Shown: in pieces, positions 2,918 through 56,616 of the stretch
Numbering within the stretch: position 1 is the stretch's first letter
Layout: each line of letters starts with the position of its first letter
From: an uncultured Actinomycetes bacterium
GTDB taxonomy: Bacteria; Actinomycetota; Actinomycetes; Mycobacteriales; Mycobacteriaceae
DNA length: 64,000 bases
Reading direction: 5' to 3'
Assembly (NCBI GenBank): GCA_903884065.1
Contig: CAISDL010000120.1
Coordinates: forward strand, 1 to 64,000
Made by a program: the position numbers and the translations under genes
The notes under the pieces: generated by a model
What the model was told of the DNA's origin: nothing
The model's database searches: none
What the model saw: only the letters and a program-made list of their open reading frames with translations

Positions 2918-5602
2918 GTGAGCGATAAGCCGACATTGATGTTGCTGGACGGCAATTCGCTGGCGTTCCGCGCCTTCTATGCGCTGCCCGCGGAGAATTT
3001 CAAGACCAAGAACGGCCTGACCACCAACGCGGTCTACGGCTTCACCGCGATGCTGATCAATCTGCTGCGCGACGAGGCGCCCACCCACATCGCCGCCGCG
3101 TTCGACGTGTCCCGGCAGACCTTCCGCTCGGAGCGCTACCCCGAGTACAAGGCGGGCCGGGCATCGACTCCGGACGAGTTCCGCGGCCAGATCGACATCA
3201 CCAAGGAAGTCCTCAACGCCCTCGGAATCACCGTGCTCGCCGAGGCCGGTTTCGAGGCCGACGACATCATCGCCACGCTGGCGACCCAGGCCGACGAGGC
3301 CGGCTACCGCGTGCTGGTGGTCACCGGGGACCGGGACGCGCTGCAACTGGTCAACTCCGACATCACCGTCCTCTACCCGATCAAGGGCGTCAGCACCCTG
3401 ACGCGCTACACCCCGGACGCCGTCGTGGAGAAGTACGGCCTGACGCCCGAGCAGTACCCGGATTTCGCGGCGCTGCGCGGCGATCCCAGCGACAACCTGC
3501 CCGGCATCCCGGGTGTGGGGGAGAAGACCGCCGCCAAGTGGATCGTGGAGTACGGATCACTGCAGAGTCTGGTGGACAACGTCGACGCGGTACGGGGCAA
3601 GGTCGGAGATTCGTTGCGCGCCAACCTCTCCAGTGTCGTCCTCAACCGGGAACTCACCCATCTGGTGCGTGACGTTCCGCTGGCCCAGACGCCCGACACA
3701 CTTCGTCTGCTGCCCTGGGACCGTGACCAGATCCACCGCCTGTTCGACGACCTCGAGTTCCGGGTGCTGCGCGACCGGCTGTTCGACACTCTGGCCGCGG
3801 TGGAGCCGGAGGTCGACGAGGGGTTCGACGTCCGGGGCGGCGCGCTGGAACCCGGCGCGGTGGGGGACTGGCTGGCCGCGCACGCGACCGACGGCCGGCG
3901 TTGCGGCCTGGCGGTGGTCGGCACGCATGCGGTCTACGACGGCGACGCCGCCGCACTGGCCATCGCGACCGCCGACGGCGAGGGCGCCTACATCGACACC
4001 ACCGCGATGTCGGCCGCCGACGAGGCCGCGCTGGGAACCTGGCTGGCCGACCCGGCCGCACCCAAGGCGCTGCACGAGGCGAAAGCGGCGATCCACGATC
4101 TGGCCGGCCGGGGCTGGCAGCTGGCCGGTGTCACCTCGGACACCGCACTGGCGGCCTACCTCGTGCGCCCCGGTCAGCGCAGCTTCGCTCTCGACGACCT
4201 GTCACTGCGTTACCTGCGTCGCGAACTGCGGGCGGAAACCCCCGAGCAACAACAACTTTCGCTGCTCGACGACACCGAGGGCGTCGACGACCAGGCCGTC
4301 CAGACGTTGATCCTGCGGGCGCGCGCGGTCGCCGACCTGGCCGACGCCCTCGACGTGGAGTTGGAGCGGATCGACTCCGCCGCGCTGCTGGGCGGGATGG
4401 AACTGCCCGTGCAGTCGGCACTGGCCGGCATGGAGAACGTGGGCATCGCCGTCGACACCGACAAGCTCGAGACATTGCAGAGCGAGTTCGGCGCGGCGAT
4501 CCGCGACGCGGCCGAAGCCGCGTATGCGGTGATCGGCAAACAGATCAACCTGGGTTCGCCCAAGCAGTTGCAGGTGGTGCTCTTCGACGAATTGGGCATG
4601 CCCAAGACCAAGAAGACCAAGACCGGCTACACCACCGATGCCGACGCCCTGCAGTCGCTGTTCGACAAGACCGGTCATCCGTTCCTGGAACACATGCTCA
4701 CCCACCGCGACGCCACCCGACTCAAGGTCACCGTTGACGGCCTGCTGAAGTCCGTCGCCGCCGACGGACGCATTCACACCACGTTCAACCAGACGATCGC
4801 AGCGACGGGCCGGCTCTCCTCCACCGAGCCCAACCTGCAGAACATCCCCATCCGCACCGAAGCCGGGCGCCGGATCCGGGATGCCTTCTGCGTGGGTGAC
4901 GGGTACGCCGAGTTGATGACCGCGGACTACAGCCAGATCGAGATGCGCATCATGGCTCACCTGTCTCGCGACGAGGGACTCATCGAAGCCTTCAACACCG
5001 GCGAGGACCTGCACTCCTTCGTGGGGTCTCGGGCGTTCGGGGTGCCGATCGACGAGGTCACCGCGGAGTTGCGCCGACGGGTCAAGGCGATGTCCTACGG
5101 CCTGGCCTACGGGTTGAGTGCCTACGGCCTGTCCGCGCAACTGAAGATCTCCACCGAGGAGGCCAAGGAGCAGATGGACGCCTACTTCGCCCGGTTCGGC
5201 GGAGTGCGCGACTACCTGGAGGGTGTCGTCGACCAGGCCCGCAAGGACGGATACACCTCCACGGTGCTCGGGCGGCGGCGCTACCTGCCCGAACTGGACA
5301 GCAGCAACCGCCAGCTTCGCGAAGCGGCTGAGCGGGCCGCGCTGAACGCCCCGATCCAGGGCAGCGCCGCCGACATCATCAAAGTGGCGATGATCGGGGT
5401 GGACGCCGCGCTGCGCGGGGCCGGGCTCTCATCCCGGCTGCTGTTGCAGGTGCACGACGAGTTGCTGCTCGAGGTGGCGCCGGGGGAGCGGGACGCCGTC
5501 GAGCTACTGGTGCGCGACCGGATGGGCGGCGCCTACCCGCTCGATGTGCCGCTGGAGGTGTCGGTGGGATACGGCCCCAGCTGGGACGCCGCAGCGCACT
5601 AG
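2918..5602 (+). CDS. polA: DNA polymerase I
   Basis: VSDKPTLMLLDGNSLAFRAFYALP (5'-3' exo) and TADYSQIEMRIMAH, LQVHDELLLEV polymerase motifs. GTG 2918 preferred over ATG 2912 because of the promoter geometry (TAGAGT-N6-GTG). Confidence 0.97.
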   Translation: MSDKPTLMLLDGNSLAFRAFYALPAENFKTKNGLTTNAVYGFTAMLINLLRDEAPTHIAAAFDVSRQTFRSERYPEYKAGRASTPDEFRGQIDITKEVLNALGITVLAEAGFEADDIIATLATQADEAGYRVLVVTGDRDALQLVNSDITVLYPIKGVSTLTRYTPDAVVEKYGLTPEQYPDFAALRGDPSDNLPGIPGVGEKTAAKWIVEYGSLQSLVDNVDAVRGKVGDSLRANLSSVVLNRELTHLVRDVPLAQTPDTLRLLPWDRDQIHRLFDDLEFRVLRDRLFDTLAAVEPEVDEGFDVRGGALEPGAVGDWLAAHATDGRRCGLAVVGTHAVYDGDAAALAIATADGEGAYIDTTAMSAADEAALGTWLADPAAPKALHEAKAAIHDLAGRGWQLAGVTSDTALAAYLVRPGQRSFALDDLSLRYLRRELRAETPEQQQLSLLDDTEGVDDQAVQTLILRARAVADLADALDVELERIDSAALLGGMELPVQSALAGMENVGIAVDTDKLETLQSEFGAAIRDAAEAAYAVIGKQINLGSPKQLQVVLFDELGMPKTKKTKTGYTTDADALQSLFDKTGHPFLEHMLTHRDATRLKVTVDGLLKSVAADGRIHTTFNQTIAATGRLSSTEPNLQNIPIRTEAGRRIRDAFCVGDGYAELMTADYSQIEMRIMAHLSRDEGLIEAFNTGEDLHSFVGSRAFGVPIDEVTAELRRRVKAMSYGLAYGLSAYGLSAQLKISTEEAKEQMDAYFARFGGVRDYLEGVVDQARKDGYTSTVLGRRRYLPELDSSNRQLREAAERAALNAPIQGSAADIIKVAMIGVDAALRGAGLSSRLLLQVHDELLLEVAPGERDAVELLVRDRMGGAYPLDVPLEVSVGYGPSWDAAAH

Positions 5603-50335: not shown

Positions 50336-52840
50336 ATGCGGCTCCCATACAGCTGGCTGCGCGAAGTGGTACAGGCCGGAGCGCCGGGCTGGGATGTCGA
50401 CCCGCACGATCTCGAGAAGGCGCTGATCCGGGTCGGCCATGAAGTCGAGGACGTCATCACCCTCGGCCCCGTCAGCGGGCCACTGCGCATCGGGCGGGTC
50501 ACCGGCATCGAGGAACTCACCGAGTTCAAGAAGCCGATCCGGGCCTGCACGGTTGACGTCGGCGAGGGCCCCAGTGGTGTTGCGGATCGCGACATCGTCT
50601 GTGGCGCAACGAACTTCGCGGTCGGTGACCTGGTGGTCGTGGCGCTTCCGGGTGCCACGCTGCCCGGCGACTTCCATATCGCGACCCGCAAGACCTACGG
50701 CCGCACCTCCGACGGAATGATCTGCTCGGCGGCCGAACTCGGTCTGGGGACCGATCATTCCGGGATTCTGGTGCTGCCCGCCGGCACCGCCGAACCGGGT
50801 GCCGACGGCCACGCGGTCCTGGGGCTTGACGACGTGGTGTTCGACCTCGCCGTGACCCCCGACCGCGGCTACGGCTTGTCGGTGCGTGGCATCGCCCGCG
50901 AGATCGCCTGCGCCTACGACCTCGATTTCGTCGACCCCGCCGACGTGCCGGCCCTGCCGGTACAGGGCCCCGCACTACCGGTGACCATCGCACCCGGAAC
51001 CGGCGTGAGCCGCTTCGCGCTGCGCCCGGTCACCGGCATCGACCCGAAGGCGTCCTCGCCGTGGTGGTTACGCCGGCGACTGCTGCTCTCGGGCATCCGG
51101 CCGATCTCGCCTGCCGTCGACGCGACCAACTACGTCATGCTCGAAATCGGCCATCCGATGCACGCCCACGACGGCAGCCGGATCCATGGGGAATTCGCCG
51201 TGCGGTTCGCCAACCCGGGGGAGACCGTCGTCACCCTCGACGACGTGGAACGACGACTGGATCCGGGCGACGTTCTGATCGTCGACGATGTCGCCGTCGC
51301 CGCCATCGGCGGGGTGATGGGTGCGGGCACCACCGAGATCGACGAGAACACCACCGACGTGCTGCTGGAGGCGGCGGTGTGGGATCCCGCCGCGGTGTCC
51401 CGCACGATCCGTCGGCTGCATCTGGTCAGCGAGGCCGGTCGCCGCTACGAGCGGTCGGTGGACCCGGCGATTTCGGTGGCGGCCGTCGATCGATGCGCAG
51501 CCCTGCTCGCCGAGATCGCCGGGGGCACAGTGCAACCCGTCCTCACTGACTGGCGCGGCGATCCGCCTCGCGACGATTTCTCACCGCCGCCGGTGCGGAT
51601 GGCTCTCGACCTGCCCGACCGGATGGCCGGGGTCGTCTACCCCGACGGTGCATGCGTCGCTCGGCTGACCCAGATCGGCGCGCGGGTTGCCGCCGACGCC
51701 GATCCCGCCTATCTGATCGTCACCCCGCCCAGTTGGCGGCCCGACCTCGTGCAGCCCGCCGACCTCGTCGAAGAGGTGCTGCGACTGGAGAGCCTCGACG
51801 TCATCCCCTCGGTGTTGCCGCCGGCCCCCGCCGGACGCGGGCTCAGCGCTCTGCAGCAGCGCCGCCGGGCGATCGGCAGGGCACTGGCCCTGGCCGGGTT
51901 CGTGGAGGTGTTGCCCACCCCCTTCCTGCCGGCCGGGGTCTTCGACCAGTGGGGCCTGGCCGGTGACGACCCGCGCCGGAATACCACCGCGGTGCTCAAC
52001 CCGCTCGAGGCGGACCGTCCGGAGTTGGCCACCACACTGCTTCCTCCATTGCTGGAGGCCCTGTCCCGCAACGTGTCCCGCGGATTCGGGGATGTCGCTC
52101 TGTTCTCCATCGCCCAGGTGGTGGTGCCGACGGCACAGACCCGGGCCGTCGGGCTGATTCCCACCGACCGCCGGCCGACCGAGGATGAGATCGCGAACCT
52201 CGACGCCTCGCTGCCGCTGCAGCCCGTACACGTCGGAGCGGTGCTAGCCGGCCTGCGTGAGCCGCGCGGTCCGTGGGGGCCCGGCCGGCCGGTGGAGGCC
52301 GCCGATGCGTTCGAGGCCGTCCGGGTGATCGCCCGGGCCTGCGGGCTGGAGGCCACCTTGCGTCCGGCCCAGTTGCTGCCCTGGCATCCGGGGCGCTGCG
52401 CCGAGGTGGTGGTCGACGGTCGGGTCGTCGGCCATGCCGGTCAACTGCACCCGGCGGTGGTGGAACGCTCCGGGCTGCCCAAGGGCACCTGCGCGATGGA
52501 ACTCGACCTCGATGCCGTGCCGATCGTCGCGTCGCTGCCCGCGCCGCGGGTCTCGCCGTTCCCGGCGGTGTTCCAGGACCTCAGTCTGGTCGTCGCCGCC
52601 GACGTGGCCGCGCAGGCCGTCGTCGACGCGGTGCGCGACGGTGCCGGTGATCTGCTTGAGGACGTGGTGCTGTTCGACGTCTACACCGGGCCGCAGATCG
52701 GGGAGGGAAGCAAGTCGCTGACGCTCGCGCTGCGGTTCCGGGCCGCCGACCGGACTCTCACCGAGGACGAGGCCAGCGCTGCGCGCGATGCGGGGGTGGC
52801 CCGGGCGGGCGAACTGTTGGGTGCACAGCTGCGCGGATAG
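50336..52840 (+). CDS. pheT: phenylalanyl-tRNA synthetase beta subunit
   Basis: [13 protein letters not shown]..., 834 aa, B3/B4/B5 and FDX-ACB-like domains; directly after pheS. Confidence 0.97.
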
Positions 52841-52859: not shown

Positions 52860-54254
52860 CTACCCCGGGTCGTCTTCATCGGGACGGAGCACCTTCTCCG
52901 GGTGGTGATAGAGGTTGACCCGGCTCTGCCCCCGGTCGAGATGCCGCGGTGGAATCCATTCGGTTCGATTGTCGCTCTTCCGTTTTCGGGTGGTCCACCC
53001 CGTCGGCGAGTCGTCGACCAGGCGGTTGTCGCACCCGCAGGCCAGGGTGAGTTCGTCGATATCGGTGTTGCCGCCGTGCTGCCAGTCGCGCTCGGCATGG
53101 TGGACTTGGCACCGGTTGGCGGGGACGGTGCAATCGGGCTTCGTGCATCCCCGGTCGAGGGCATGCAGGACGAGGCGCTGCCCGGGGCCGGCGGTGCGCC
53201 GGGTGCGCCCGTAGTAGAGCTGGATCTCGCGTGGAGTGTGGAACAGCGCCAGGTAGGGATGGGCTTCGGCGGCCATCCGGATGAGTGTCGGAATCGGCAG
53301 TTGCGTTCCTCCGCCGGTGTGGGCAAATCCGGCGGCTGCGGACAGGTCGGCCAGCGTTGCGGTCGCCACCACCGTGACCGGCAGTCCGTTGTGCCGGCCC
53401 AGCTTCCCGGAGGCCAGCATCGCCCGGCAGACGGTCGTCAACCCGTCGTGGGTGCGCTGTGCGGCGGTCCGGGTATCGCCGGTGATCTGGGCTTGTGACG
53501 GGGTGCCGTCGATGCAGGGATCGTCATCGCCGGGGTTGCAGTATCCGGGCGCGGCGAGTTTGGCGAAGATCGCGTCAAGGGTCGCGCGCAGTTCGGGATC
53601 GATCCACCCCGAAATCCGGCTCATGCCGTCGAGTCCCTGGTTGCCCAGCGTGATGCCGCGCTTGCGGGCGTGCTCACGGTCGTCATCGAGGGTGCCGTCC
53701 TGGTCGAGGTAGCCCATCAGCTGCCGGGCGACCTTGCGCAGTCCCTCCGGGGTCAGTCCGCCGGCCAGCTGAGCGAGTTGGACCTCGGCCTCCGCCCGGG
53801 TGCCAAGATCGACAGCCGTCGGCAGCTGGGCCATGAAATCCAGGATCACCGTCACATGCTCAGTTCCGATCTCGCCACGTGCCTGCGCCGCAGCGGTGGT
53901 CGCCAGTTGCGGCCCCAGCGGTTCGCCGGTGACGGCGCGACGCGCCCCGAGCGCAGCGGCCTCCGCGATTCGGCGGCCGGCGTCGGAACCGCTGATCCCC
54001 AGCCGGTTCGACAACACCGCCCGCCAGGATTTCGCGCCCATCTCCGTCGCAGTGGCCTGGGACTGCGCGTGTGTGGTCAGCGTGTGCTCGAAAGCGGGCT
54101 GGCGCCGCCGATGGGTTTCCAGCCGGCTCAGTGCCGCCAGGGCCTGCGGAGCACTGAGGGTCCCGACAGGTGACGAGGCCAGCTTGTCCCAGGCGGCGTC
54201 GAGTTCGTCCAGTGCGGCCATCACCGCCTCGGCTTCGGAAGTGGGCGACTCCAT
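52860..54254 (-). CDS. 13E12 repeat family HNH endonuclease (DUF222)
   Basis: DUF222 body plus HNH-type C-terminus HALDRGCTKPDCTVPANRCQVHHAERDWQHGGNTDIDELTLACGCDNRLV. Confidence 0.9.
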   Translation of the reverse strand: MESPTSEAEAVMAALDELDAAWDKLASSPVGTLSAPQALAALSRLETHRRRQPAFEHTLTTHAQSQATATEMGAKSWRAVLSNRLGISGSDAGRRIAEAAALGARRAVTGEPLGPQLATTAAAQARGEIGTEHVTVILDFMAQLPTAVDLGTRAEAEVQLAQLAGGLTPEGLRKVARQLMGYLDQDGTLDDDREHARKRGITLGNQGLDGMSRISGWIDPELRATLDAIFAKLAAPGYCNPGDDDPCIDGTPSQAQITGDTRTAAQRTHDGLTTVCRAMLASGKLGRHNGLPVTVVATATLADLSAAAGFAHTGGGTQLPIPTLIRMAAEAHPYLALFHTPREIQLYYGRTRRTAGPGQRLVLHALDRGCTKPDCTVPANRCQVHHAERDWQHGGNTDIDELTLACGCDNRLVDDSPTGWTTRKRKSDNRTEWIPPRHLDRGQSRVNLYHHPEKVLRPDEDDPG

Positions 54255-54257
54255 GTA

Positions 54258-54273
54258 TCGAACACTAGTTCGA
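54258..54273. promoter_or_regulatory. LexA (SOS) box controlling the 13E12 HNH gene
   Basis: Perfect palindrome TCGAAC-ACTA-GTTCGA 3 bp upstream of ATG; minus strand TAGTGT (-10) lies inside it. Confidence 0.85.
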
Positions 54274-54281
54274 CAGACTGA

Positions 54282-56616
<2,335 letters not shown>

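Follow-up and report, generated by a model that had tools for sequence, protein, structure and literature searches.

A compact promoter predicted to couple LexA repression with PafBC activation at the start of a chromosomal DUF222/13E12 gene

A chromosomal gene of the DUF222/13E12 family, found in a 64 kb stretch of actinomycete DNA (the window, meaning this whole stretch), begins with a very compact promoter, in which a perfect mycobacterial LexA box and a PafBC-type upstream element share one and the same -10 hexamer next to the start codon. We observe here how the sequence is arranged, that the arrangement is conserved and that it goes with DUF222 genes, and on this basis we consider it quite probable that the promoter is repressed by LexA, activated by PafBC and needs both damage alarms for the protein to be made. 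The 13E12/DUF222 proteins are an abundant, unexplained mycobacterial family which is spread across Actinomycetes. A composite damage promoter would tell when they are made and which two regulators have to be removed, so that the question of repair, suicide or mobility becomes directly testable.

Results

The window promoter

On the minus strand the start of the gene reads CTGTCAGTC-TG-TCGAAC-TAGTGT-TCGA-TAC-ATG (Table 1). The promoter carries the LexA regulon pattern TCGAACN4GTTCGA as a perfect box that covers the -10, and this is the sole zero-mismatch match in the window, where 0.0016 would be expected from base composition. In the 4.09 Mb genome five such boxes are observed against 0.11 expected and none for the reversed control pattern; four of the five coincide with DUF222 gene starts, and the remaining one precedes an imuA'-like gene. 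A chance origin of the box was rejected from the observed and expected counts, the control pattern and the family survey. The gene of LexA itself is present in the genome. As the -10 ends 7 nt before the ATG, the distance is that of leaderless genes (6-7 nt). The initial annotation had described an SOS palindrome 3 bp from the ATG, a TAGTGT -10 inside it and a 13E12 HNH gene downstream, and all three were found again. LexA control and a leaderless start are strongly supported by family-wide conservation of the arrangement; the reading given in that annotation is incomplete, having missed the PafBC half. The window gene is likely to be made only after DNA damage.

Table 1. Features of the locus, with positions in the window
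Feature	Position	Strand	Basis
pheT, left neighbour, convergent	50336..52840	+	ORF, flank comparison
DUF222/13E12-type gene, 464 aa	52860..54254	-	ORF; PF02720 E=8e-85; start position fits relatives
Variant HNH core, residues 370-415	53010..53147	-	C370-C375-H385-H386-E401-C406-N410; alignment of 70 relatives
DUF222 domain	53154..54137	-	PF02720 match; AF2 model, mean pLDDT 87.9
Start codon ATG	54254-54252	-	7 nt after -10, predicted leaderless; TAC between box and ATG
-10 element TAGTGT within LexA box	54262..54267	-	Sequence; same -10/box registers in relatives
Perfect LexA box TCGAACTAGTGTTCGA	54258..54273	.	Matches mycobacterial TCGAACN4GTTCGA, zero mismatches, 16-bp palindrome
PafBC (RecA_NDp) upstream element CTGTCAGTC	54276..54284	-	Core TGTCAG 54278-54283, 10 nt from -10
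Operator-like palindrome of argC, TTTGCA-N6-TGCATAANNATGCA	54330..54359	+	Conserved; right-hand limit of the putatively inserted gene
argC, right neighbour, divergent	54369..55400	+	ORF, flank comparison

TGTCAG stands exactly 10 nt upstream of TAGTGT, and the resulting TGTCAG-N10-TAGTGT is the published motif of PafBC, the regulator of the RecA-independent damage response. In M. tuberculosis such motifs begin with one of TGTCGG, TGTCAG and TGTCAC, and N10 separates this hexamer from TANNNT (PMC8151990); an older form of the motif is tTGTCRgtg-N8-TAnnnT (PMC5656591). To this longer consensus the window element conforms at seven of nine positions, both mismatches being outside the core. TGTCRG has a frequency of 0.0007 per position, and TGTCRG-N10-TANNNT was met once in the window on either strand, at the promoter of this gene; uniqueness in the window, the family survey and the cross-species and genus composite scans together led us to reject a chance origin. 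No -35 is recognisable at the promoter. PafBC is activated by single-stranded DNA and acts on the sigma-A polymerase by sigma adaptation, inserting between promoter DNA and sigma domain 4, which normally contacts the -35 (PMC11804915). A pafA-pafB-pafC-like cluster, in which a pafA-like ORF is followed by WYL genes in tandem, is found on contig C61 of the same genome. TGTCAG-N10-TAGTGT together with a LexA box over the -10 most likely constitutes a single leaderless promoter, activated by PafBC and blocked at its -10 by LexA.

The promoter across the family

We surveyed 134 DUF222 genes with readable starts from genomes of the same genus. A LexA box (up to two mismatches) was present at 98 of the 134 starts and the PafBC motif TTGTCRGTG-N8-TANNNT (up to two mismatches) at 104, with zero matches in in-gene control windows for either. 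The PafBC spacing is fixed: at no more than one mismatch, 82/134 genes have the motif with N8, and none of the other spacings between 4 and 12 reaches more than six. The distance from the -10 to the ATG is 6-7 nt in nearly all these relatives. Measured against the -10, the LexA box occurs in just four registers (offsets -7, -6, +6 and +7). Class I genes have the -10 directly adjoining the box and the start codon within it (TANNNT-TCGAAC-ATG-NNTTCGA), so that many DUF222 genes of the genus start within their operator; class II genes, among them the window gene, have the -10 within the box and the ATG beyond it; and in class IIb the box is moved by one base and the -10 moved along, so that N8 is retained. 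The four promoter states require at least 12 changes on a quick protein tree, in which L052, a row near a contig start that lacks LexA, did not count as a loss, and this suggests that LexA boxes were repeatedly shifted or lost over a constant PafBC frame.

A good LexA box is missing in 36 of the 134 genes, which argues that LexA is not essential family-wide, and 32 of these 36 keep the PafBC motif (up to one mismatch). Outside the genus, among 49 actinomycete loci, the LexA box (up to one mismatch) was found in 13 and the PafBC motif (up to two) in 22, with empty controls at those thresholds, and starts with PafBC only or LexA only are common. LexA as the ancestral control of the family is not favoured, given that box-less members keep PafBC and single-element starts are common outside the genus. 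By its sequence distribution, the composite LexA/PafBC promoter appears to be a signature of the DUF222 family.

The composite was also searched blind to what follows it. The exact class II form, TGTCRGTG-N2-TCGAACTANTGTTCGA, was scanned in the genomes of 84,980 species and occurs in at least 118 stretches; 80 loci fetched from these contain 81 sites, and a DUF222 reading frame directly follows at least 70 of them. The other 11 include a DUF222 gene in another frame (L241), a cut locus (L244), a second cut one repeating the DUF222 start of L215 (L242) and two short or unclear downstream ORFs (L257, L269). Within 149 genomes of the genus the reversed control of both composite classes gave zero matches. 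With 30 loci fetched per class, the composite directly precedes DUF222 in 25/30 and 28/30, the seven exceptions being four DUF222 genes out of frame, one interrupted by an ORF after the ATG, one cut and one unclear.

Several of the loci deserve separate mention. In five Amycolatopsis loci (L217, L226, L243, L254, L255) the exact composite stands before an ORF of about 267 aa that is not DUF222 (MTIAPFRPGVGAPPVQTLPPGRWHGRIW...), and in a Promicromonosporaceae MAG (L252, minus strand ~3561-4030) before a different small HNH-type ORF (MRTCLSCGGVMTRPS...LDHVDGNADNNHRDNLRLVCPNC), which suggests that the switch may be also used for other HNH nucleases. Locus L378 (~1500-2900) has a composite with its ATG beside a LexA half-site, then a long transposase-like ORF and a faint DUF222 remnant beyond, as if an insertion sequence had landed in the start of a DUF222 gene. 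Three contigs filed as Bifidobacterium breve or Acidobacteria MAGs (L203, L212, L247) bear a mycobacterial-type DUF222 gene with the composite promoter and are probably mis-binned. A second DUF222 subfamily is represented in the window's own genome by L009 (G000:C73:6576-6591), where a perfect LexA box (TCGAACACATGTTCGA) encloses the ATG and a large Lhr-like helicase ORF runs divergently, so that the one box may serve both genes.

The protein and its locus

The PF02720 score of the window protein is 285 bits, the curated cut-off being 24.4, and 12 PF02720 matches in this genome (G000) mark a multi-copy family. In its C-terminal HNH-type core C370, H386 and C406 are invariant in the alignment of 70 relatives and H385-H386 form a conserved pair. 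The N and the last H of the classical HNH core are replaced by E401 and N410, by which we would class the protein as a variant HNH; with these two classical residues absent, nuclease activity is not assured from the sequence. The AF2 model found no fold match in the PDB better than E=0.16, with weak hints of Cas9-HNH and McrA, and the structure was set aside as a clue to function, the model being confident and the PDB match not. A known defence system was likewise rejected, as PADLOC profiles gave no match to the protein.

A DUF222 gene lies between pheT and argC in two of 30 argC loci, in G000 and in a related genome (G003), and in 20 of the 22 other loci with a visible pheT the gap between both genes is 47-193 nt. 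The prevalence of short empty gaps implies that the gene arrived upstream of the conserved argC operator, and it seems to have entered this lineage as little more than a promoter and an ORF. The palindrome motif, presumably an Arg box, stands upstream of argC also in empty-site genomes. The G003 orthologue (L016, ~1570), the only one in the same place, keeps TGTCGG-N10-TAATGT, the LexA box and the ATG, while the spacer and neighbouring bases differ. It has a frameshift near codon 178, either an assembly error, the assembly being 72% complete, or a fresh pseudogene. Between G000 and G003 dN/dS is 0.18 and 0.12 (C-terminal) for two parts of the DUF222 gene and 0.16 for argC, values that point to purifying selection on the window gene. 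Family members are absent from 50,697 phage records and occur in five of 72,556 plasmids and in one viral-contig fragment, with no PHROG match; on this near absence a phage-borne origin was rejected.

Discussion

We propose that in an undamaged cell LexA would sit on its box, over both the -10 and the site of transcription start, and RNA polymerase, facing this block at a promoter with no recognisable -35, would be unable to start. DNA damage would expose single-stranded DNA, RecA filaments would form on it and LexA would cleave itself, and the same single-stranded DNA would activate PafBC. PafBC would then bridge the sigma-A polymerase to TGTCAG, which precedes the -10 by 10 nt, transcription would begin at or beside the ATG and give a leaderless mRNA, and the protein would be present only when both alarms agree. 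Since the promoter core is of PafBC type, we expect the gene to require the RecA-independent alarm in addition to the SOS one. Binding of both regulators, their joint action as an AND gate, the place where transcription starts and the nuclease activity are in this scheme predictions from the DNA. As the job of the protein we would name, at slightly less than even confidence, that of a host-encoded endonuclease of severely damaged cells, which cuts DNA to process damage or to finish the cell. It is our first choice because the gene is under purifying selection, a link to phages is lacking and the promoter lock looks tight. A wider suggestion is made very tentatively, and we would rather bet against it: that the DUF222/13E12 proteins as a whole serve the damage response of actinobacteria as its specialised last-stage effectors, defined by the AND-gate promoter, in which the operator often includes the start codon, and made under both alarms alone to cut DNA in cells past ordinary repair.

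It could be argued that this is a plain SOS gene, where LexA alone matters and TGTCAG occurs upstream by chance. The perfect box, the RecA dependence of HNH genes in M. tuberculosis and the match of the element to just 7/9 long-consensus positions would agree with such a reading, and yet a hexamer so rare sits at the exact spacing, is conserved as an element in the G003 orthologue and belongs to a motif shared by most relatives, including nearly all those without a good LexA box, which makes it improbable. Still less probable, in our opinion, is a repeat protein that has lost its catalysis and whose promoter is a relic: the core letters H-E-N instead of H-N-H and the frameshifts seen in several relatives as well as in G003 are set against the invariance of H386, C370 and C406 among the 70 aligned relatives and the dN/dS of 0.12 over the C-terminal part.

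Two further readings concern the purpose of the gene. The damage switch of a homing-like selfish gene would time the cutting of an empty site to active recombination, when repair copies the gene. The occupation of pheT-argC in 2/30 loci next to so many empty gaps, the high and variable copy number of DUF222 genes and the 13E12 repeats being gene-conversion hotspots in M. tuberculosis (PMC13061034) make homing-like mobility our second choice. At the locus, however, we find neither an intron nor an intein, no transposase and no clear target duplication, and purifying selection with argC-like synonymous divergence suggests vertical descent since the G000/G003 split, so that we hold it unlikely. 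A damage-triggered nuclease of abortive or programmed death, acting on the host chromosome and possibly directed against phages, is a little easier to accept and still doubtful. A doubly locked leaderless promoter would suit a dangerous product, and MSMEG_1275, an HNH nuclease of M. smegmatis, fragments DNA and is lethal on over-production (PMC9416677); but its bearing on DUF222 is conjectural, four other HNH genes over-expressed in the same work did not greatly inhibit growth, and PADLOC gave no match.

MSMEG_1275 resembles the window protein in being HNH-type and damage-linked, and it cuts chromosomal DNA with H-N-N active residues, but is described as ArsR-regulated (PMC9416677). We liken it as an HNH nuclease, not as a member of DUF222, and for that reason took it for a lead only and not for proof of function. 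Parallels in both family and mycobacterial LexA box are the M. tuberculosis 13E12 genes, of which Rv0515, Rv1702c, Rv3074 and Rv3776 are reported as members of the LexA regulon with SOS boxes in the part of Davis 2002 relayed by PMC5005354, in agreement with what the initial annotation had said of this family. In M. tuberculosis RNA-seq, five putative HNH endonucleases were induced by mitomycin C only with RecA (PMC8151990), which fits the LexA half of the proposed switch. In the literature searched on these genes we found no description of a PafBC element sharing the promoter, nor of fixed registers between -10 and box or a start codon inside the box.

Mycobacterial recA, like the window gene, has both LexA and PafBC on one gene (PMC5656591, PMC11804915); it differs in separate promoters, P1 for PafBC and P2 for LexA, either alarm being sufficient. 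In the window gene both elements lie over one -10, and both alarms are predicted to be necessary. SOS boxes on 13E12 genes, dual PafBC/LexA control as in recA and a leaderless SOS gene, lexA, are already known. A composite LexA/PafBC start-codon switch as signature of a nuclease family was not found in the published literature searched, and neither was, in main texts, a statement of PafBC control of DUF222/13E12. A promoter of the window type would provide a compact AND gate of natural origin that responds to DNA damage, and in the family one sees how LexA operators evolve around start codons and across them.

The lexA gene of M. tuberculosis corresponds to our prediction for the window gene in being a leaderless SOS gene whose start codon is the transcription start (PMC2897130), and differs from it in reportedly having an SOS box alone, without PafBC (PMC8151990). 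In the genome studied here, a PafBC-like motif is located close to lexA on the other strand (G000:C65:11624-11646), which resembles the situation in M. tuberculosis, where the motif reportedly serves the neighbouring operon.
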